DNA of 64,000 bases, from the NCBI GenBank assembly GCA_029547045.1, contig JAKPQL010000119.1, positions 1 through 64,000 of the forward strand, given 5' to 3'. The notes under the pieces are model-generated. The model had not been told where the DNA came from. It saw only the letters and a list, made by a program, of their open reading frames with translations, and ran no database searches. Position numbers and translations under genes: made by a program. Shown one piece after another: positions 10,861 through 20,538 of the stretch. Each line of letters starts with the position of its first letter. Positions within the stretch are counted from its first letter, which is position 1. Source of the stretch: Deltaproteobacteria bacterium. GTDB lineage: Bacteria; Desulfobacterota; Desulfomonilia; UBA1062.

Positions 10861-11847
10861 GTGACCGGGTTGGAAGGGTGCGTGCTCATCACTGACATCG
10901 CCAGGTTCTCGGTGAACGACGGTCCCGGGTTCAGGACCAACGTGTTCCTCAAGGGGTGTCCCTTGAGGTGCGCATGGTGCCACAATCCGGAAACCATATC
11001 GGCAGGGCCCCAGCTGTACTGGAAGCGCAGGCTCTGTGTCCAGTGCGGGGCATGCCTCGACGCATGCCCCAGGGGCGCCATCAGGCCGCCCGTCTCTCCC
11101 GAGCTCGGCAGGGACCCGGATTCACCCTGCCGGAAGATCGACCGGACGAAGTGCGACCTGTGCATGGAGTGCGTCAAGGCCTGCAGGTACGACGCCCTCC
11201 AGGTCGTGGGCAAGCCCATGAGCGCCTCGGAGATCCTGGACGAGGTGGAGCGCGACCGGCCCTTCTACGACAACTCGGGCGGCGGGATGACCCTGAGCGG
11301 CGGGGAGCCCACGGCACACCCGGCATTCTCCCGGGAACTGCTCGCGGGTGCGCGGGAGCGCGGCCTCCACACCTGCCTCGACACGAACGGCTTCTGCGGG
11401 TTCGAGGTCCTCGAAGAGCTCTGCGGGCTCGCTGACATCGTGCTTTTCGACCTCAAGCACCTGGACCCTGTCAGGCACTTCGAGAAGACAGGCGCAAGGA
11501 ACGAGCAGATCCTGGACAACCTCATGCGGCTCAGCAGGGTCCACCCCGGGATATGGATACGGATCCCCGTCATCCCGGACTTCAACGATGACTTTGCCTT
11601 TCATCGCAGGGCAGCGGCCTTCATTGCATCGCTGGGCGGTTCCGTCGGCAGGGTCGACCTGCTCCCGTACCACAACTGGTGCCAGGACAAGTACGACTGG
11701 CTCGGCACGGACTGGGCCTACCGGGATGTCGAGGCGCTGGATCCCTCTTTCCTGGAACTCCATGCGGGGATCTACCGGGAAACGGGGCTCGGGGTGACCA
11801 TCGGGGGATCCGGGTTCGAGGAGACCCAGACGGCGCACGGGCCGTGA
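10861..11847 (+). CDS. assD: Alkylsuccinate synthase activating enzyme (radical SAM)
   Basis: A 328-aa activase of the BssD/AssD/MasG type. The radical-SAM motif GCPLRCAWCHNPE is followed by two ferredoxin-like clusters (CVQCGACLDAC; CDLCMECVKAC) and SGGEP. It precedes the small Cys-rich subunit and the alpha subunit, the order seen in bss and ass/mas operons. Its job is to form the glycyl radical on Gly808 of the alpha subunit. The start is uncertain: GTG at 10861, TTG at 10870 or GTG at 10882 (after GGAAGG) are all possible. The 49-bp gap to the PrpD gene holds no recognised promoter, so it probably belongs to the long transcript from 6221. Confidence 0.92.
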   Translation: MTGLEGCVLITDIARFSVNDGPGFRTNVFLKGCPLRCAWCHNPETISAGPQLYWKRRLCVQCGACLDACPRGAIRPPVSPELGRDPDSPCRKIDRTKCDLCMECVKACRYDALQVVGKPMSASEILDEVERDRPFYDNSGGGMTLSGGEPTAHPAFSRELLAGARERGLHTCLDTNGFCGFEVLEELCGLADIVLFDLKHLDPVRHFEKTGARNEQILDNLMRLSRVHPGIWIRIPVIPDFNDDFAFHRRAAAFIASLGGSVGRVDLLPYHNWCQDKYDWLGTDWAYRDVEALDPSFLELHAGIYRETGLGVTIGGSGFEETQTAHGP

Positions 11848-12145: not shown

Positions 12146-14644
12146 ATGGCGGCGACAGCTGAAACCGTGAAAGAGCTCGAAAAGAAACAGGAGTGGTGGT
12201 GGGCCGCGGAGAAGAAGCGCTCCAGGAGGCTCGACTACCTCAGGAAGGCCATGTGGAAGAAGGGCGCCATCGGCGGCCTGTACCCCGCTGGCCTGCAGAT
12301 TGACCTCGAACGGCCCGTGATGCAGACCGAGAAGGCGAAGGAGCTCGAGTCCTCGGCGGACCCCTATGTCATCAAGTTCGCCAAGATGCTCGCGCACGTG
12401 CTGGACAACAAGACCATCTTCATCACGGACCGCTCCCAGCTCGTGGGTTACCTGGGGAGCGCCCCCAACATGATCACCTGGGATCCGACCCTGGCCGCGA
12501 TCCTGAACCACGAGGTCTTCAACGACCCGGATTCCCTCCCGCAGCCACTGGACGAAAGCCTGAAGGTCATCCGGGACGTCACGAACTACTGGGGAGGCAA
12601 GTCGGATCTGGACAAGATACTGCCCCACATGGATCTCGGCGATGTCATGAAGGTCCTCTCGGGTGCCATCGGCTGGGGGGTTCCGCTCGGCCGGGGCGGA
12701 TATTCCGGCAAGGACTACGAGTACATCATGACCGGGGTGCGGGCCTTCGAGGACATCATCGAGGAACTGGACAGGAGGATCGACGAGGCGGACGCCAGGT
12801 CGCACCGGTTCGATGCCTCCAGGGAGATCAGCGACCTCATCGACAAGATCAACAACTGGGAGGCCATGAAGATCACGCTCGAGGCAGGCATCCGGCACGC
12901 CAGGCGCTATGCCCGGCTGGCCAGGATCATCGCGGAGAACTTCGAGTCCGATGCGGTACGGAGAGAGGAGCTGGTCAGGGTGGCCGAGACCTGCGAGCGC
13001 GTCCCTGCGAAGCCACCCAGGACCCTGCAGGAGTCCCTCCAGTATGACCTCTTCATCCAGCTCTTCAGCAGGAACGAGGCCATCGAGGGTGCATGGCCGG
13101 CCAGGCCCGACTTCTACCACGGACCGTACTACGAACGGGACGTGAACATCAGAAAGACCCTGACCAGGGAGGAGGCCCTGGACCTGGTGGGCGAGTTCCT
13201 CATCCGGGCCGCCGAGGTGTCCCAGTACAAGCCCAAATGGGCCAGGGAGGGCCTCCAGGGCATCGAGGGGACCTGGGTATGGACGCTGGGCGGCGTGAAG
13301 AAGGACGGCAGCGACGCGTGCAACGGTATGACCATCGCGCTCCTGCAGGCAGCACGGCTGGTCAGGGTGGCGAACCCCACCTTCGCGTTCCGGTGGCACC
13401 CCAAGGTCTCCGACGAGGTCATGCGGGAGTGCTTCGAGTGCATCCGCCAGGGCCTGGGGTACCCGTCCATGCGCAACGACCCGGTCCTCGTGGCGAACGC
13501 CATGCACTGGCACGGCCACCCCATCGAGGAGGCCCGGCTCTGGGTGCACCAGGCGTGCATGTCGCCGTCGCCGGCCACCAAGCACGGGTTCCAGCCCATG
13601 CGCATGGCCAACGCCACGGCCAACTGCGCCAAGATCATCGAGTACGTGTTCACGAGCGGGTACGACCACGTGGTGAACCTGCAGATCGGCGCCGAGACGC
13701 CGCCGGTGGAGACACTCGAAACCTACGAGCAGTTCTTCGACGCCTGGGTCACCCAGATGAAGACCATCTTCACCATCCTCGTGCGCCCGGTGAACCGCGC
13801 TCGGATCCTGGCGCCCAAGCTCACCCCGCGGCCGTTCCTCTCGGCGGTTTCCGAGCGCTCGGTGGAGAGCGGGCTCGACGTTTTGGAGCCCTCCATCAGC
13901 CGGGGCAACGCGTGGATCACGGCGTTTACCTGGGTGGAGAACATAGACAGCCTGGCCGCGGTGAAGAAGCTCGTGTTCGAGGAGAAGAAGTACACCATGG
14001 CCGAGCTCAAGGAGGCCCTCCTGAACAACTGGGAGGGCAGGGAGGAGATGCGGCTCGACTTCGTGCGGAACGCGCCCAAGTGGGGCAACGACGACGACTA
14101 CGTGGACTCCATCATGCTCGACTGTCTGAAGGCGGCATCCGAGTTCTCCCACGAGATCAAATGCCCGAGCGGCAACAACTGGCCCATTCTGCCCGAGAAC
14201 GTGAGCGGGAACATCCACTACGCGAACATCGTGGGCGCGCTTCCCAACGGCAGAAGGCTCGGCGACGCGCTCTACGACGGGGGCATATCCCCTGGCCCGG
14301 GCCTCGACAAGAAGGGGCCCACCGCGGTGCTCAAGTCGTGCTCCAAGATCGACCACGTCACCAACGGCAGGGCCTTCCTGCTGAACCAGCGGCTGTCGCC
14401 CACCCAGCTCTCGGGCGAGAAGGGCTACCAGCTCTGGAAGACCTACATGAAGACCTGGGCGGACCTGGGCATCGACCATGTCCAGTTCAACTGCGTGTCC
14501 GACGAGACGCTGCGGAGCGCCCAGCGGGACCCCGAGAAGTACCAGGAGGTGATCGTGCGGGTGGCGGGCTACAGCGCCCACTTCGTGGACATCAGCCGGA
14601 AGACGCAGGACAACATCATCCAGCGGACCGTGCAGGGGTTGTAG
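12146..14644 (+). CDS. assA: Alkylsuccinate synthase catalytic (alpha) subunit, glycyl radical enzyme
   Basis: An 832-aa glycyl radical enzyme of the X-succinate synthase group (AssA/MasD). The thiyl cysteine is Cys471 in WVHQACMSPSP and the radical glycine is Gly808 in RVAGYSAHFVD. Regions characteristic of AssA include GTWVWTLGGVKKDG, FAFRWHPKV and GFQPMRMANATANCAK. The enzyme adds a secondary carbon of an n-alkane to fumarate to form (1-methylalkyl)succinate in the cytoplasm, the first step of anaerobic alkane oxidation. It is flanked by its activase and by small Fe-S subunits on both sides, as in mas and bss operons. The ATG at 12146 follows AGGGGAGTGA. A preference for alkanes over alkylbenzenes is inferred from resemblance to AssA, not proven. 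Confidence 0.93.
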   Translation: MAATAETVKELEKKQEWWWAAEKKRSRRLDYLRKAMWKKGAIGGLYPAGLQIDLERPVMQTEKAKELESSADPYVIKFAKMLAHVLDNKTIFITDRSQLVGYLGSAPNMITWDPTLAAILNHEVFNDPDSLPQPLDESLKVIRDVTNYWGGKSDLDKILPHMDLGDVMKVLSGAIGWGVPLGRGGYSGKDYEYIMTGVRAFEDIIEELDRRIDEADARSHRFDASREISDLIDKINNWEAMKITLEAGIRHARRYARLARIIAENFESDAVRREELVRVAETCERVPAKPPRTLQESLQYDLFIQLFSRNEAIEGAWPARPDFYHGPYYERDVNIRKTLTREEALDLVGEFLIRAAEVSQYKPKWAREGLQGIEGTWVWTLGGVKKDGSDACNGMTIALLQAARLVRVANPTFAFRWHPKVSDEVMRECFECIRQGLGYPSMRNDPVLVANAMHWHGHPIEEARLWVHQACMSPSPATKHGFQPMRMANATANCAKIIEYVFTSGYDHVVNLQIGAETPPVETLETYEQFFDAWVTQMKTIFTILVRPVNRARILAPKLTPRPFLSAVSERSVESGLDVLEPSISRGNAWITAFTWVENIDSLAAVKKLVFEEKKYTMAELKEALLNNWEGREEMRLDFVRNAPKWGNDDDYVDSIMLDCLKAASEFSHEIKCPSGNNWPILPENVSGNIHYANIVGALPNGRRLGDALYDGGISPGPGLDKKGPTAVLKSCSKIDHVTNGRAFLLNQRLSPTQLSGEKGYQLWKTYMKTWADLGIDHVQFNCVSDETLRSAQRDPEKYQEVIVRVAGYSAHFVDISRKTQDNIIQRTVQGL

Positions 14645-14704: not shown

Positions 14705-15073
14705 ATGGCAAGGATCAGCAGGGACGAGTACGCGAAGGCCTCGGGGGTGTTCGGCCTGGCTCCGGGCGGGGTCCAGAAACAGGAGGACCTGGAGAAGGTC
14801 CCGGAGAAGCCGTGCGGACTGTGCAGGCACTTCATGGAGAGTGCATGGTCCAGCGACGGGAGGGGGAGCTGCAAGATCCTCAAGGAGGGATCCGACATCA
14901 CCACCGACCCCCCGGTGTTCGTCCTGGAGGGGAAGGACGGGTACATGCTGCGGATCCTCACGGACGCAACCCGGTGCACGCACTACGAGCGGAACGAGTT
15001 CATCGACAAGGACGGGTACGAGTGCAGCGATCCCGCGTTCAGGCGGTTCATCCGGCAGCTGAGGGACAAGTGA
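14705..15073 (+). CDS. assB: Small Fe-S subunit of alkylsuccinate synthase (BssB/MasE-like)
   Basis: A 122-aa protein with a CxxC-x(18)-C-x(n)-C arrangement (KPCGLCRHFMES, GSCKIL, TRCTHYERNEF). This is the pattern of the [4Fe-4S] HiPIP-like small subunits of benzylsuccinate and alkylsuccinate synthases. Its position directly after the alpha gene matches bssB and masE. It should bind on the alpha subunit and keep it in an activatable state. AAGGAGG (14691-14697) precedes the ATG at 14705. The C-terminal half is longer than in the 54-aa subunit at 11930. Confidence 0.8.
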   Translation: MARISRDEYAKASGVFGLAPGGVQKQEDLEKVPEKPCGLCRHFMESAWSSDGRGSCKILKEGSDITTDPPVFVLEGKDGYMLRILTDATRCTHYERNEFIDKDGYECSDPAFRRFIRQLRDK

Positions 15074-15107: not shown

Positions 15108-15338
15108 ATGAAGTGCACCGAATGTGGATTCGAGGCCCCCGTGGAGAAGTTCCGGTATCTGTACAACGCGCGCATCGACGCCCCCATCAGCATCAGGCAG
15201 TGCACGCAGTGCCAGGCCTGGATAGCGGTGGACGAGCTCAAGGGTGTAGCGACCCAGAAGGTCGGGCCGGGCGAGGCGCCGTGGGGCAAGTCCGCAGGGA
15301 TCGAGGGTCTGGCGGAGGATGTCAGGGGCCGGTCGTAG
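15108..15338 (+). CDS. Additional small zinc-ribbon-like subunit (MasB-like candidate)
   Basis: A 76-aa protein with two CxxC knuckles (MKCTECGFEAP and RQCTQCQAW) about 30 residues apart, a rubredoxin- or zinc-ribbon-like arrangement. Alkane-type synthases are known to carry one extra small subunit (MasB) that toluene-type enzymes lack. This gene, the third Cys-rich small protein beside the alpha subunit, is a good candidate. AAAGGAG precedes the ATG. The C-terminal 25 residues are low in structure (Gly/Glu-rich). Assignment as a subunit rather than an assembly factor is inference from position and size. Confidence 0.7.
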   Translation: MKCTECGFEAPVEKFRYLYNARIDAPISIRQCTQCQAWIAVDELKGVATQKVGPGEAPWGKSAGIEGLAEDVRGRS

Positions 15339-15446: not shown

Positions 15447-15800
15447 ATGGACCTGACGTGCCATGCATGCGGCTTCAGGGCGCACTATCTCGAGTTCGCC
15501 TACCTGTGCAGGAACGGGTGCCCGGCCTGCGGCGAGTCGGACCTGCGCCGGTGTCCGAAGTGCGGCGCCAGCTGCGTCTTTTCCCGCGCGGAGGCCCTCG
15601 AGGACGAGGAAGTCCGGATGAACGAGCTGGCATACCGGCTCTGGTCCATGAAAAGGACACAAGACCCCGGGGCCGTCAAGGAGGCGAAGCGGATCATCGC
15701 CACGCTCTCGAAGATGAACCTCAGGTGGAACATCCCCGGGATCAGTGAGCTTCTTTTGCACAAGCAGAAGGAGCTGTTTCTTGAGGCAGGAGACCTATGA
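15447..15800 (+). CDS. Zinc-ribbon protein of the synthase operon
   Basis: A 117-aa protein of unknown function. The N-terminal 55 residues hold three cysteine pairs (CHACGF, CRNGCPACG, CPKCGASC), probably binding zinc. The C-terminal 60 residues are helical and charged (EALEDEEVRMNELAYRLWSM onwards). It overlaps the MoxR ATPase gene by 4 bp, so the two are translationally coupled. That suggests an adaptor linking the synthase subunits to the MoxR/VWA machine. No recognised family was identified. Confidence 0.75.
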   Translation: MDLTCHACGFRAHYLEFAYLCRNGCPACGESDLRRCPKCGASCVFSRAEALEDEEVRMNELAYRLWSMKRTQDPGAVKEAKRIIATLSKMNLRWNIPGISELLLHKQKELFLEAGDL

Positions 15801-16669
15801 AGAGACTGCACGGTGTTGATCAGGATGTCTTCGACAAAACGGCGGCCGTGCCGGAGCCCGAGGACCACTTCTTCCTCAGGAGCGAGGTCATCGCCAACCT
15901 CGAGCGGATCGAGCGGCTCTCGCGGAGACACCCGGTGAACGTGCTCGTGGCGGGCAAGCAGGGCTGCGGCAAGTCCACCCTGGTGCGCCAGTTCGCGGCG
16001 AGGAACAGGAGGCCCTTGGCCACCTTCCAGATCGGCATCCTGTCGGAGCCGGGCCAGCTCTTCGGTGAGCACCGTCTCAGGGACGGCCAGACCTTCTACC
16101 AGGAATTCCTCTTCCCGCAGGCCATCAGGACGCCCGGGTGTGTCATCCACCTGGAGGAGATCAACCGGCCCGAGCACCCCAAGGCCCTGAACATGCTCCT
16201 GTCCGTCCTGGCCGAGGACAGGAGCGCCTGGCACGACGAGCTCGGGCACGTGCATGTGGCCGACGGCGTGGTCTTCTTCGCCACGATGAACGAGGGTGAC
16301 GAGTTCGTCGGCACCGAGATGCTCGATGCGGCGCTGCGTGACCGGTTCTACGTCACGATGCTCGACTACCTGCCCGCCGAGGTCGAGACAGAGGTGCTCC
16401 AGCTCAAGGGCTCCGTGTCCGGGGCGGATGCGCTCACCATCGTGAACGTGGCGAACAGGCTCCGCAGCAACAGGAACGAACCCATGACGGTGTCCACCCG
16501 GCACACCCTCATGATCGCCGAGATGGTCTGTGTGGGCGCGACGGTGAAGGAGGCCTTCATGCACAGCCTCCAGGTGAACCCGGACGTGCTGGAGTCGGTC
16601 CTGCTGTCGCTCCACGTGGAGCTCGGGCTCCGGGAGAAAGAGGCCCCCGGCCGGTACCGGACATACTAG
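15797..16669 (+). CDS. MoxR-type AAA+ ATPase (BssE/TutH-like)
   Basis: A 290-aa MoxR ATPase. Walker A is AGKQGCGKSTL, Walker B is VIHLEEINRPE and sensor 1 is FFATMNEGDEF. MoxR proteins pair with VWA-domain partners to remodel or metallate enzymes (NorQ/NorD, CbbQ/CbbO). Benzylsuccinate synthase operons encode a similar ATPase (BssE/TutH), so a chaperone role for the alkylsuccinate synthase complex is likely. The gene is coupled to the zinc-ribbon gene before it and lies 9 bp before the VWA gene. Confidence 0.9.
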   Translation: MKRLHGVDQDVFDKTAAVPEPEDHFFLRSEVIANLERIERLSRRHPVNVLVAGKQGCGKSTLVRQFAARNRRPLATFQIGILSEPGQLFGEHRLRDGQTFYQEFLFPQAIRTPGCVIHLEEINRPEHPKALNMLLSVLAEDRSAWHDELGHVHVADGVVFFATMNEGDEFVGTEMLDAALRDRFYVTMLDYLPAEVETEVLQLKGSVSGADALTIVNVANRLRSNRNEPMTVSTRHTLMIAEMVCVGATVKEAFMHSLQVNPDVLESVLLSLHVELGLREKEAPGRYRTY

Positions 16670-16678
16670 GGGTGAGCC

Positions 16679-18391
16679 ATGCAGGGACAGGAACAGGACA
16701 GGATGATAACGGCACCCCGCGAGGGCATGTCCGCCTTCTGGCGGAAGAACACCTCCTCGCTGGAGGCCGTAGAGCTCGCGAACCTCATCCGCGCCCTGCG
16801 CAAGGTCACTGGGCACCTGGGGGCGGGTGCGCCGTGCGTGGAGTATGCGGGCATGGCGGGGGGGAGCCCGGCAGCCATCGTGGTGGACCCGTCCGTTCTC
16901 ATGGGTGCATACCCGGTTCCTCCCGACAGGGTGGACCTTCTCGCCGGCGAGGTGGTGCACGAGGCCCTGCTCGGTATGGAATGGAGCGGGCGCGTCTGGA
17001 AGACCCTGGAGCCCTGCTGCGCGGCCATGGAGGGGATCACCCTGATCAAGTTCCAGAAGATCGTGAAGACGGCCGAGGACATTTACGTGGACTCCATCCT
17101 CGAGGGGTCGACCCTCGGGGACTACCTGGGCGTGGCGCGGAGGAAGATCCTGCATGGGGCCGCGTCATACGCCGTCCTTACCAAGTCGCCGGCCACCTTC
17201 GACGCCCTGATCCTCCACTGGTGGGCGGCATCGTTCAAGGAGCAGGGGCCGTTCGTGCCGGACGCCCGCCATGACGAGGCGTTCGGCCTGCTCCTGGGGC
17301 TCACCGAGAAGCTCAGGGCCCTGGGCGGGAACGGGACCGGCACCGTTGCGCAGTGCGCCCTCAGATCCGGCCTGTACAAGGAGCTCTGGAAGAAGGTCGC
17401 CCCGGGTCTCAGGGATCTCGCCCTCATCGACCGGAGGCTCTGCTGGATACCCGGCCTTCAGCAGGGCGCGCCCGTGAACGGGAGGCGCCCTGCGTGGCAT
17501 GGCTGCGGAACCCGCAGGCTGCCCCCCGAGCTCCTGAACGACATCGAAGCGCAGCTCGCCGCCACGTCCGCCGACATCACCCCGCTGATCCGCAGGGTTG
17601 CGGGACAGGACAGCGACGACGTCGTTCCCACCTCCCGCTGGGACTACACCATTCCTGCGCACCCGGTGGTGGACCAGGTCATGGCCTCCCGCATCGGTGC
17701 CGTCTTCCGGGCCTACTCGGCGCGCGAGGTGCTGGTGAGCAGAGGGCTCACCGCGGGGAAGATCGATGCGAGGAGGCTCCACAGGGCGCCAGTGACCGGG
17801 AGGTGCTTCAAACACCTCGACAGCAGGCCTGCCATGGACTGGAACGTGACCCTGCTCATCGACGCGAGCGGGTCCATGCGCGGGGCCAAGTGGCGCCTCG
17901 TGGAGAACACGGTGTCCACGCTCCATAAGGCGCTTTCCGGCTACCGGAACAGCCTGTCGGCCTATGCCTACTTCGAGGCGGACGGCATCTGCATGATCTC
18001 GTCGCTCATCAAGGACGGCCGCGTGCTCTCGGTGCCGCCGTGCGGCCTGACCGCGTCCGGGCAGGCCATCATCGCGGCCGCCCTGTTCATGCCGAAGGCG
18101 CTCCGGCGCAGGCTCCTCATCCACGTCACGGACGGCGAGTCGAACTACGGTGTGGACGTGTCCGTGGGCATCGGGTTCTGCAGGGCCCGGGGCATAGACC
18201 TGGTTACACTGGGCTGCGGGTGCCGCGACCTGAAGGTCATGGAGGCCCAGTACGGCAGCACCATCGAGTTCATCGGGGGTTTCAGGGCGCTGCCCCGGGC
18301 CATCGAGCGGCTCCTCAGGCGGACCTTCCTGTACCGGACAGGGCCCATGCCGGCGACGGAATCCGGGAACGGCATGAAGGAGGACAGGTGA
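16679..18391 (+). CDS. VWA-domain protein, partner of the MoxR ATPase
   Basis: A 570-aa cytoplasmic protein with no signal peptide. The C-terminal von Willebrand A domain begins at about residue 385 with the metal-ion site DASGSM. A downstream DGESNYGVDV segment completes the fold. The N-terminal 350 residues match no motif recognised here. Its size and layout recall NorD/CbbO/CoxE-type proteins that bind a target and recruit a MoxR ATPase through the VWA domain. Placement directly behind the ATPase and inside the synthase operon supports the glycyl radical synthase as the client. The gene ends 1 bp before the next ATG. Confidence 0.85.
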   Translation: MQGQEQDRMITAPREGMSAFWRKNTSSLEAVELANLIRALRKVTGHLGAGAPCVEYAGMAGGSPAAIVVDPSVLMGAYPVPPDRVDLLAGEVVHEALLGMEWSGRVWKTLEPCCAAMEGITLIKFQKIVKTAEDIYVDSILEGSTLGDYLGVARRKILHGAASYAVLTKSPATFDALILHWWAASFKEQGPFVPDARHDEAFGLLLGLTEKLRALGGNGTGTVAQCALRSGLYKELWKKVAPGLRDLALIDRRLCWIPGLQQGAPVNGRRPAWHGCGTRRLPPELLNDIEAQLAATSADITPLIRRVAGQDSDDVVPTSRWDYTIPAHPVVDQVMASRIGAVFRAYSAREVLVSRGLTAGKIDARRLHRAPVTGRCFKHLDSRPAMDWNVTLLIDASGSMRGAKWRLVENTVSTLHKALSGYRNSLSAYAYFEADGICMISSLIKDGRVLSVPPCGLTASGQAIIAAALFMPKALRRRLLIHVTDGESNYGVDVSVGIGFCRARGIDLVTLGCGCRDLKVMEAQYGSTIEFIGGFRALPRAIERLLRRTFLYRTGPMPATESGNGMKEDR

Positions 18392-18392
18392 G

Positions 18393-18803
18393 ATGCAGGT
18401 GAGTTCAGCGGTGAGGCAATGCCTCGAGAAGGAAGACAGGACGAATGTCCTTGCCACCTCGGACCGGGCGGGCAACGTGAACGTGGCCATGTTCGGATCG
18501 TACCGGCTCATGGACGACTCGTCGGTGATCGTCATGCTCTCGGACAACCGGACCTTCGCGAACCTCAGGGAGAACCCCCATGCCGCCTGCATGGTGATGA
18601 TCCACGGCACGAGCGGCATGGGCACACAGGGCTGCAGGCTCTACATGAAGGTCCGCAGCATCGAGGATGAGGGGGAGCGGTGGACCGAGGTGAGGCAATC
18701 CATCAGGAAGCGGATCGGGAATGCGGCAGACATGCTCAGGCACCTCGTGTGGTTCGACATCGTGGAGGCGAGGCCCATCCTCGACCTGGGCCAGGGCATC
18801 TAG
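18393..18803 (+). CDS. Pyridoxamine 5'-phosphate oxidase-like flavin-binding protein
   Basis: A 136-aa split-barrel protein: NVLATSDRAGNVNVAMFGSY and FANLRENPHAACMVM are typical of the small PNPOx-like FMN-binding family. Such proteins reduce flavins or organic substrates, or simply store FMN. It is tightly packed between the VWA and acyl-CoA synthetase genes, so it is co-expressed with the alkane pathway. A specific role cannot be read from the sequence. Confidence 0.75.
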   Translation: MQVSSAVRQCLEKEDRTNVLATSDRAGNVNVAMFGSYRLMDDSSVIVMLSDNRTFANLRENPHAACMVMIHGTSGMGTQGCRLYMKVRSIEDEGERWTEVRQSIRKRIGNAADMLRHLVWFDIVEARPILDLGQGI

Positions 18804-18840: not shown

Positions 18841-20538
18841 ATGGAGAAGGAAACCGGACACGCTCAGAAGACGGCCCGCTACCGCACAGAGGGCGCCGTG
18901 AGCGTTTTCCCTGCCAGGGAAAGGGAACAGCACGAGGACAGGGATCGGGAGAGGCTCCTGCGTGCAGCATCCGTGGAGTGGAACGTGGGGTACATCCCCT
19001 ACAAGCGTGCCATGGTAACTCCGGACAAGACCGCGGTCATCTACGAGGACAGCCCGTGCACCTACCGGGAACTCAACGAGCGGGTGAACCGCTGCGCCCA
19101 CTTCCTGCTCAGGAAGGGGATCCGCAAGGGCGACCGGGTGGCGGTGCTGCTCCTGAACTGCATAGAATTCCTGGAGGTGTACTTCGCTTCTGCCAAGATC
19201 GGCTCCATCCTGGTACCGCTCAACTGGCGGCTCGTGGGACCGGAGCTGGAGTACCAGCTCAACAACTGCAGCGCGCGCCTGCTCGTGTTCCACGACTCCT
19301 TCCTGGGAAGCGTGGACCTCATCAGGGGCAGGCTCAAGGTGGAGCAGGACAAGTTCGTGTTCCTCAACAGCGGAGCCCCCTTGCCCAGGGGATTCGAGGC
19401 GCCCCGGTGCCCCGAGTGGGCCGAGGACTATCACGAACTCGTCAGGGACCAGCCCGTGAAGGAGCCCCATGCCGAGGAACCGGTGCACCTGGACGACCCG
19501 CTCGCCATCCTCTACACCTCCGGGGTCACGGGCAGCCCCAAGGGCGCGGTGGTCTCGCACCAGCAGACCTTCTTCAAGAACTTCCAGGTGGCCATCTACG
19601 TGGATGCCCAGCAGGACGACGTGGTCATCGCCCAGATGCCGCTCTTCCACTCGGGCGGCCTGTTCATCGTTGCCACGCCTATCCTGTGCGGCGGCATGAC
19701 CCTGGTCATGCGCCGGGGCTTCGATGGAGGCGAGTTCGCCGAGGACATCCAGCGGTACCGTGGCACCATCGTGTTCGCGCTCACCACCATGTGGCGCATC
19801 ATCCTGGACACGGGCAAGCTGGACCAGATCGACGTGAGCTCGGTGCGGTGCGTGGTGGGAGGCGGAGAGCGGACCCCGCCGAGCCTCTTCACGGAGCTCG
19901 CCAAGCGCAACCTCTACATGCAGCAGGGGTTCGGCCAGACCGAGAACTCGGCCATGATGCTCCTGCCCCGGGAGGATATCCAGCGCAAGATGGGCTCCAT
20001 CGGCAAGCCCGGATTCTTCACCGAGATCTGGATCGCGGACAGCACCGGCAGGCGGCTTCCCGCAGGCGAGATCGGCGAGATCTGCGCGAGAGGCCCCACG
20101 GTGATGAGCGGGTACTGGGATATGCCCGATGAGACCGCCAAGGCCATAACTGCAGGCGGAGTGCTCCACACCGGCGACCTCGGGTATACGGACGAGGAGG
20201 GGTACTTCTACATCGTGGACAGGGCCAAGGACATGTACCGCTCCGGCGGGGAGAACGTCTACCCGGCCGAGGTCGAGAAGATCCTCATGACCCACCCCAA
20301 GATCTCGCTCGCCGCCATCATCGGGGTGCCGGACGAGCGGTGGGGTGAGACGGGCATGGCCTTCATCGTGCCCGCGCCGAACCAGACTATCACCGAAGAG
20401 GAGATCCTGGAACACCTCAGGGACAAGGTGGCCAGGTACAAGTATCCCTCAAGGTTCAGGTTCATGACCGAGCTCCCGCTCACCGCCACCATGAAGGTGA
20501 GGAAGGCGGAGCTCAAGGAGAGATACGCGCGGATCTGA
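18841..20538 (+). CDS. AMP-forming acyl-CoA synthetase (AssK-like; candidate alkylsuccinate-CoA ligase)
   Basis: A 565-aa member of the ANL ligase superfamily. The ATP/AMP signature is LYTSGVTGSPKGAVVSH, the A5-type motif is GFGQTEN, the hinge is TGDLGY, and the catalytic lysine lies in ATMKVRK near the C terminus. An extra 45 residues precede the core. Within an ass operon its expected role is ATP-dependent conversion of (1-methylalkyl)succinate to its CoA ester, the substrate of the mutase at 6318-8487. Activation of other carboxylic acids cannot be excluded. The ATG at 18841 follows GGGGAGG. The next gene begins 1 bp after the stop codon. Confidence 0.9.
   Translation: MEKETGHAQKTARYRTEGAVSVFPAREREQHEDRDRERLLRAASVEWNVGYIPYKRAMVTPDKTAVIYEDSPCTYRELNERVNRCAHFLLRKGIRKGDRVAVLLLNCIEFLEVYFASAKIGSILVPLNWRLVGPELEYQLNNCSARLLVFHDSFLGSVDLIRGRLKVEQDKFVFLNSGAPLPRGFEAPRCPEWAEDYHELVRDQPVKEPHAEEPVHLDDPLAILYTSGVTGSPKGAVVSHQQTFFKNFQVAIYVDAQQDDVVIAQMPLFHSGGLFIVATPILCGGMTLVMRRGFDGGEFAEDIQRYRGTIVFALTTMWRIILDTGKLDQIDVSSVRCVVGGGERTPPSLFTELAKRNLYMQQGFGQTENSAMMLLPREDIQRKMGSIGKPGFFTEIWIADSTGRRLPAGEIGEICARGPTVMSGYWDMPDETAKAITAGGVLHTGDLGYTDEEGYFYIVDRAKDMYRSGGENVYPAEVEKILMTHPKISLAAIIGVPDERWGETGMAFIVPAPNQTITEEEILEHLRDKVARYKYPSRFRFMTELPLTATMKVRKAELKERYARI

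Follow-up and report, generated by a model that had tools for sequence, protein, structure and literature searches.

A putative selenoprotein family resembling the delta subunit accompanies the MoxR–VWA pair of alkylsuccinate synthase loci

Sequenced anaerobic toluene degraders have in common the operon bssDCABEF, in which bssE and bssF encode an AAA+ ATPase and a VWA protein and in which, as described, no gene intervenes between bssB and bssE (PMC7285207). The MoxR–VWA pair itself is thus already known from bss operons, and elsewhere from NorQ/NorD, which act on cNOR; NorQD has been proposed to twist and stretch NorD, thereby opening the target (PMC13036017). For (1-methylalkyl)succinate synthase (MASS), an alkylsuccinate synthase, the structure shows the delta subunit seated on the glycyl radical domain and occupying room required by the activating enzyme, from which it must move or leave in a manner that was left open; beta and delta order this domain, and the PWGKSAGI tail of delta contacts it (PMC12358834). 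In BSS, the beta subunit inhibits activation (PMC10239695). The MASS of strain HxN1 makes alkylsuccinates in Escherichia coli, and its seven-gene mas cluster is described without a MoxR or VWA gene (PMC12358834). Here we analyse a locus in a 64,000-nt stretch of DNA (the window) from a deltaproteobacterium, in which a MoxR–VWA pair follows the synthase genes. We find that the new element of this module is its third component, a delta-like seleno/thiol protein of 117 amino acids, about half of whose homologues, in other bacteria, are almost certainly encoded with selenocysteine.

The alpha, beta, gamma and delta subunits of a MASS/ASS-type synthase are all present at the window locus (Table 1). 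By sequence comparison the locus encodes an alkylsuccinate synthase of MASS type, because its alpha subunit is far closer to MasD than to BSS alpha and its beta and delta subunits match MasB and MasE. The initial annotation had placed a module of a zinc-ribbon protein, a MoxR ATPase and a VWA protein inside the synthase operon. Its three open reading frames, encoding 117, 290 and 570 amino acids, were verified at their coordinates, the MoxR and VWA assignments proved correct, and the gamma, alpha, beta and delta genes indeed precede the module; the description of the smallest protein needed revision, as set out below.

Table 1 Features of the alkylsuccinate synthase locus in the window.
Feature	Position	Strand	Basis
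Radical-SAM activating enzyme (AE) of the synthase	10861..11847	+	TIGR02494, 322 bits; BssD model below cut-off
Gamma subunit, 54 aa	11930..12094	+	Sequence reading; equivalent position in related loci
Alpha subunit, glycyl radical enzyme, MASS/ASS type	12146..14644	+	MasD (9o8u_A), 1253 bits; BSS alpha, 482 bits
Beta subunit, MasB-like	14705..15073	+	9o8u_B, 4e-26
Delta subunit, MasE-like, rubredoxin-like	15108..15338	+	9o8u_D, 2.5e-25
Delta-like Cys/Sec protein (earlier 'zinc ribbon'), Cys form in the window	15447..15800	+	Family alignment A1; homology to delta
Codon 25 of the 117-aa gene, TGC in the window	15519..15521	+	In-frame TGA in 13 of 24 collected homologues
MoxR-type AAA+ ATPase, BssE/NorQ-like	15797..16669	+	AAA_5, 1.1e-19; CbbQ_C, 21.4 bits (cut-off 20.6)
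VWA protein, helical N-terminal part, BssF/NorD-like	16679..18391	+	Model matches NorD VWA best, Z 20.0 over 226 residues
PNPOx-fold flavin-type protein, conserved neighbour	18393..18803	+	PF01243, 4.8e-09; downstream in most related loci
Acyl-CoA ligase, conserved neighbour	18841..20538	+	AMP-binding, 2e-87; related loci

The ATPase and the VWA protein form a pair of the NorQ/NorD kind, as had been supposed, on the basis of Pfam domains, a NorQ profile match and a NorD fold match. The ATPase combines an AAA+ core with a CbbQ/NorQ C-terminal domain, as NorQ/CbbQ-type proteins do, and its P-loop (GxQGCGKS) is invariant; its profile matches include midasin (3e-29), NorQ (1e-17), CbbQ and CobS. 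The VWA protein matches the Pfam VWA domain (6.7e-06), has NorD as its closest solved fold, and keeps the MIDAS residues (DxSxS-T-D: D395, S399, T458 and D485) invariant. NorQ is among the best ATPase profile matches, but the window ATPase scores midasin above it, and the target here is a glycyl radical enzyme rather than cNOR, with a third protein in the module. The initial annotation had mentioned a related ATPase in bss operons; the likeness to BssE/BssF (TutH) is one of operon place and description, genes for a MoxR-type ATPase and for a VWA protein lying downstream of those for an X-succinate synthase in both. In the window, unlike the bss operon, a delta-like Cys/Sec gene stands before the ATPase gene.

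The cysteines of the window protein are C5, C8, C21, C25, C28, C36, C39 and C43. The three CxxC pairs reported earlier are present in this copy; across the family (alignment A1), however, only C5/C8, C36/C39 and Cys/Sec25 are invariant, together with F17, S46-R47 and RWN at 93–95, whereas C28 is replaced by threonine in five selenocysteine members and C21 by serine in two. Every member retains a thiol in the loop, at position 21, 24, 28 or 30. The family would thus appear to combine four rubredoxin-type ligands with a redox-active residue that has a movable partner. Translational coupling to the ATPase gene, the other feature that had been singled out, would fit the window, where the two genes overlap by 4 bases (ATGA), but the overlap is not conserved, the gap to MoxR in relatives being about 12 to 355 bases where measured. 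An AlphaFold2 model of the protein (pLDDT 83.6 overall) predicts a head followed by a three-helix bundle (residues 52–115); within the head, confidence is lowest in the loop that carries residue 25 (pLDDT 66 across residues 21–30). Foldseek searches with this model returned only noise (kinases, E 0.4). Kinship of the helical tail with the GAT domain or other three-helix bundles (VIA-align, Z up to 7.1) was considered and set aside, the arrangement being too common.

The 117-aa protein is probably akin to MASS-delta (MasE). Its N-terminal 45 residues resemble the rubredoxin-like head of that subunit (9o8u_D), with two CxxC knuckles, C5/C8 and C36/C39; it differs from MASS-delta by an inserted Cys/Sec loop and by a three-helix domain in place of the C-terminal clamp, the PWGKSAGI tail, which is conserved among delta proteins (alignment A5) and missing from the 117-aa family. 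The direct sequence match is weak (E 0.54). Profile comparison (hhalign) relates the family to delta with E 3e-08 over 40 columns; the match appears to owe part of its strength to a shared metal motif, because a control against the unrelated zinc knuckles of protein DG also reaches E 1.5e-05 (over 20 columns), and these figures by themselves are suggestive. For model residues 3–50, the best PDB match is MasE chain 9o8u_D (Z 5.4, rmsd 2.8, 46 residues aligned), with NrdR zinc ribbons at 4.3; Z values near 5.4 indicate a modest resemblance between the predicted head and MasE. With a further delta-like gene family, whose members lie upstream of the activating enzyme at other loci, hhalign gives E 1e-10. 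Genes of this further family encode about 75 amino acids (L038 3446–3658, L040 1314–1529, L049 6520–6744, L058 837–1049 and L065 8865–9077). Downstream of them come tandem genes for two activating enzymes, of which the second is 42–45% identical to that of the window.

Searches of 395 genomes of the same phylum identified true homologues of the 117-aa gene in 18, giving 19 genes including that of the window, and 24 homologues were collected in all; one contributing contig scan used a pattern that required a Cys codon and could therefore yield Cys forms only. An in-frame TGA stands at codon 25 in 13 of the 24, 12 of them in the one phylum and 1 in Chloroflexota, the latter in the order alpha–delta–AE–AE2–small gene–MoxR–VWA. 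Among the phylum genes, the TGA occupies the Cys25 column in 12 of 19 (YLCxGG(TGA)PACGE versus YLCRNG(C)PACGE), and these 12 are spread over seven families. The window gene is a Cys form (TGC), as is that of Desulfatibacillum alkenivorans DSM 16219 (L059). Neighbouring genes in the same loci stop at TGA, so the genetic code is standard; sequencing error or an altered code is rejected on this ground and because the codon is identical in unrelated genomes. A tRNA-Sec was found above cut-off in 18 of 19 genomes (below it in G366), and SelB in 17 of 19 (G189, 85% complete, being one below cut-off); both models match all genomes, and control genomes too at low scores, so only matches above cut-off were counted. 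On the family tree at least three Sec/Cys changes are needed (3–4 in bootstraps), which argues against a single-clade accident; the residue has probably switched more than once, although the branches with strong support do not by themselves require it. Genes of this kind are easily shortened in annotation where TGA is read as stop. Three loci (L028, L029 and L030, in genomes G130, G311 and G347) also encode a stand-alone 66-aa delta-like protein that has two CxxC knuckles. Between these lies an in-frame TGA of its own, at codon 25, which a good hairpin follows; this paralogue is confined to one family in the phylum sample, and its nearest relatives are the 117-aa family.

Bacterial SECIS elements carry a loop that starts with G. 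Directly 3′ of the TGA, the selenocysteine members share a stem of seven pairs (columns 11–17 with 24–30) closing a six-base loop, the first base of which is G in most. Across 15 Sec genes, a set that includes the three short 66-aa paralogues, 86.7% of cells are paired and 13 covary, a result reached by 0 of 500 shuffles; shifting the stem along the alignment lowers pairing to 27–50%. For 11 Cys genes from this family the paired fraction is 62.3%, and no cells covary. Relative to synonymous recoding, pairing is in excess in the Sec genes (combined p 2.6e-06, the rows being related) and not in the Cys genes (p 0.41), and the difference between Sec and Cys genes persists when the short paralogues are left out (p 0.002). 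The signal is weaker in G130, G311 and G347 and in L100; the last may use a different hairpin.

Neither Pfam, where zf-Mss51 comes closest (17 of 27 bits), nor NCBIfam has a model that the 117-aa protein matches above cut-off. The nearest NCBIfam model, zinc ribbon (seleno)protein DG (NF049953), scores 26.7 bits against one Sec member, with a cut-off of 130 bits. Protein DG has zinc knuckles like those of the 117-aa family but spans 172 positions with a different cysteine layout; we therefore rejected identity with DG or with any known zinc ribbon family, all scores being below cut-off. No match to the family was found among the 119 prokaryotic selenoprotein families listed in PMC13188914, or among the entries searched in the selenoprotein lists of PMC9312934 and PMC12013277.

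Across genomes, the small gene follows the synthase. Alpha of this type is present in 19 of the 395 genomes of the phylum; 16 genomes have both alpha and the small gene, 3 have alpha only (G367, G234 and G275), 2 have the small gene only (G041 and G130, both fragmented assemblies) and 374 have neither (Fisher p 1e-23, uncorrected for kinship). The 117-aa gene is thus seldom inherited without a synthase of this kind. A MoxR homologue occurs in all 19 alpha-bearing genomes, although G275 yielded only a diverged form, and the small protein in 16 of them; absence of the module from most ass loci, the outcome that the initial annotation had set against its own proposal, is therefore not what we observe. 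As read from tblastn, the 117-aa gene immediately precedes MoxR at nearly every locus that has it, including L037, where delta is 8 kb distant, and L100, where the order is altered. The arrangement varies in a few genomes: in G367, MoxR and VWA directly follow delta and the small gene is absent; in family f3 (L041, L044 and L045), the small gene precedes MoxR but VWA does not adjoin it; and in G182, a Sec gene (L048 9406–9747) is retained alone, away from the synthase and MoxR genes, while MoxR and VWA come after the activating enzymes. A second, diverged MoxR or MoxR–VWA pair (MoxR about 57% identical, VWA about 28%) is found at L037 14737–17411, L047 7640–8500, L076 3072–5655 and L104 9074–11721, near synthase genes in the first three.

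We propose that the products of the three genes form an ATP-driven machine that remodels alkylsuccinate synthase, with the 117-aa protein as the target adaptor. Its head would dock at the site on alpha for which delta and the activating enzyme compete, while its three-helix tail would be held by MoxR and VWA. ATP-driven twisting of the VWA protein would then pull off delta, or beta, allowing the glycyl loop to reach the activating enzyme, and Sec/Cys25 might reduce or probe a thiol or Fe-thiolate at the docking site, so that re-arming would be confined to the reduced enzyme. A co-inherited delta look-alike attached to an AAA+ motor makes a good candidate for clearing the activating-enzyme site. 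The mechanism as a whole, a delta-like selenium/thiol adaptor that guides a NorQD-like machine onto the glycyl radical domain and displaces delta for activation or reactivation, is partly inferred, and we give it a probability of roughly 0.35; the lack of the small gene in G367, the separation of VWA from MoxR in f3 and the lone Sec gene of G182 speak against it. Because the HxN1 enzyme works in E. coli from mas genes without MoxR or VWA, the module is not indispensable everywhere, and a role in efficiency, repair or recovery from oxygen would fit these data better than a strict requirement. The more specific proposal of a selenium-dependent re-activase, in which a delta-mimicking selenoprotein recruits the motor to the glycyl radical domain, removes delta in favour of the activating enzyme and restores oxidized sites, is tentative.

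Other roles can be considered for the same genes. Insertion of Fe–S subunits or exchange of damaged alpha subunits, as suggested earlier, is a guess. A machine that loads the single Fe of delta or the beta and gamma clusters, with the small protein as metal carrier and Sec/Cys25 as a labile ligand, is conceivable but doubtful. NorQ/NorD, to which the module is closest, insert non-haem iron, and CobS/CobT, to which it is related, act in cobaltochelatase; delta binds a single Fe (PMC12358834), and the small protein retains four rubredoxin-type cysteines. The delta site and the beta and gamma clusters of MASS are, however, loaded in E. coli without the module (PMC12358834), and the wandering of the nearby cysteines (C21, C24, C28 or C30) around a constant residue 25 is easier to reconcile with a redox partner than with a fixed metal site. 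The Sec in a U/CPxC-type loop, the solitary gene of G182 and the operons in which VWA lies apart from the small gene and MoxR could point to a redox repair or sensing protein acting alone on the synthase or its activating enzyme, with the MoxR–VWA linkage reflecting operon economy only. This is unlikely given the position of the gene directly before MoxR in nearly all loci that have it, L037 and L100 included.

Its delta-like head, and the existence of the second delta-like family upstream of the activating enzyme, could also mark the 117-aa protein as an alternative delta subunit built into the synthase complex; the protein lacks the tail that contacts the glycyl radical domain in MASS (PMC12358834), and delta is itself present in nearly every locus, which makes an isoform improbable. 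That the protein is a structural zinc ribbon with three Cys pairs and no redox role, as first described, is very improbable: the three CxxC pairs of the window copy suggested it, but half of the family carries TGA at codon 25 with a SECIS-like hairpin, and threonine replaces C28 in five Sec members. The family is rather a probable rubredoxin-like relative of delta with a redox-type Cys/Sec centre.

The adaptor reading offers a lead on how an oxygen-sensitive, alkane-attacking enzyme is switched on or repaired. A literature search largely confined to papers outside subscription returned none linking a selenoprotein or selenium with alkylsuccinate synthase; if the re-activase proposal is true, the 117-aa protein would give the fumarate-addition pathway its first selenoprotein component, as far as the literature searched shows, and a selenium requirement, if true, would be a new nutritional and evolutionary link.

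The surroundings of the module hold two further features. The window genome encodes five other glycyl radical enzymes, of different kinds, one at 519–2819 of the window and others on G000 contigs C34 and C69. The PNPOx-fold gene is conserved between VWA (or MoxR) and the ligase in most loci; a protein of the same fold, LssP, has been reported in the limonene operon without a clear function (PMC12583861).
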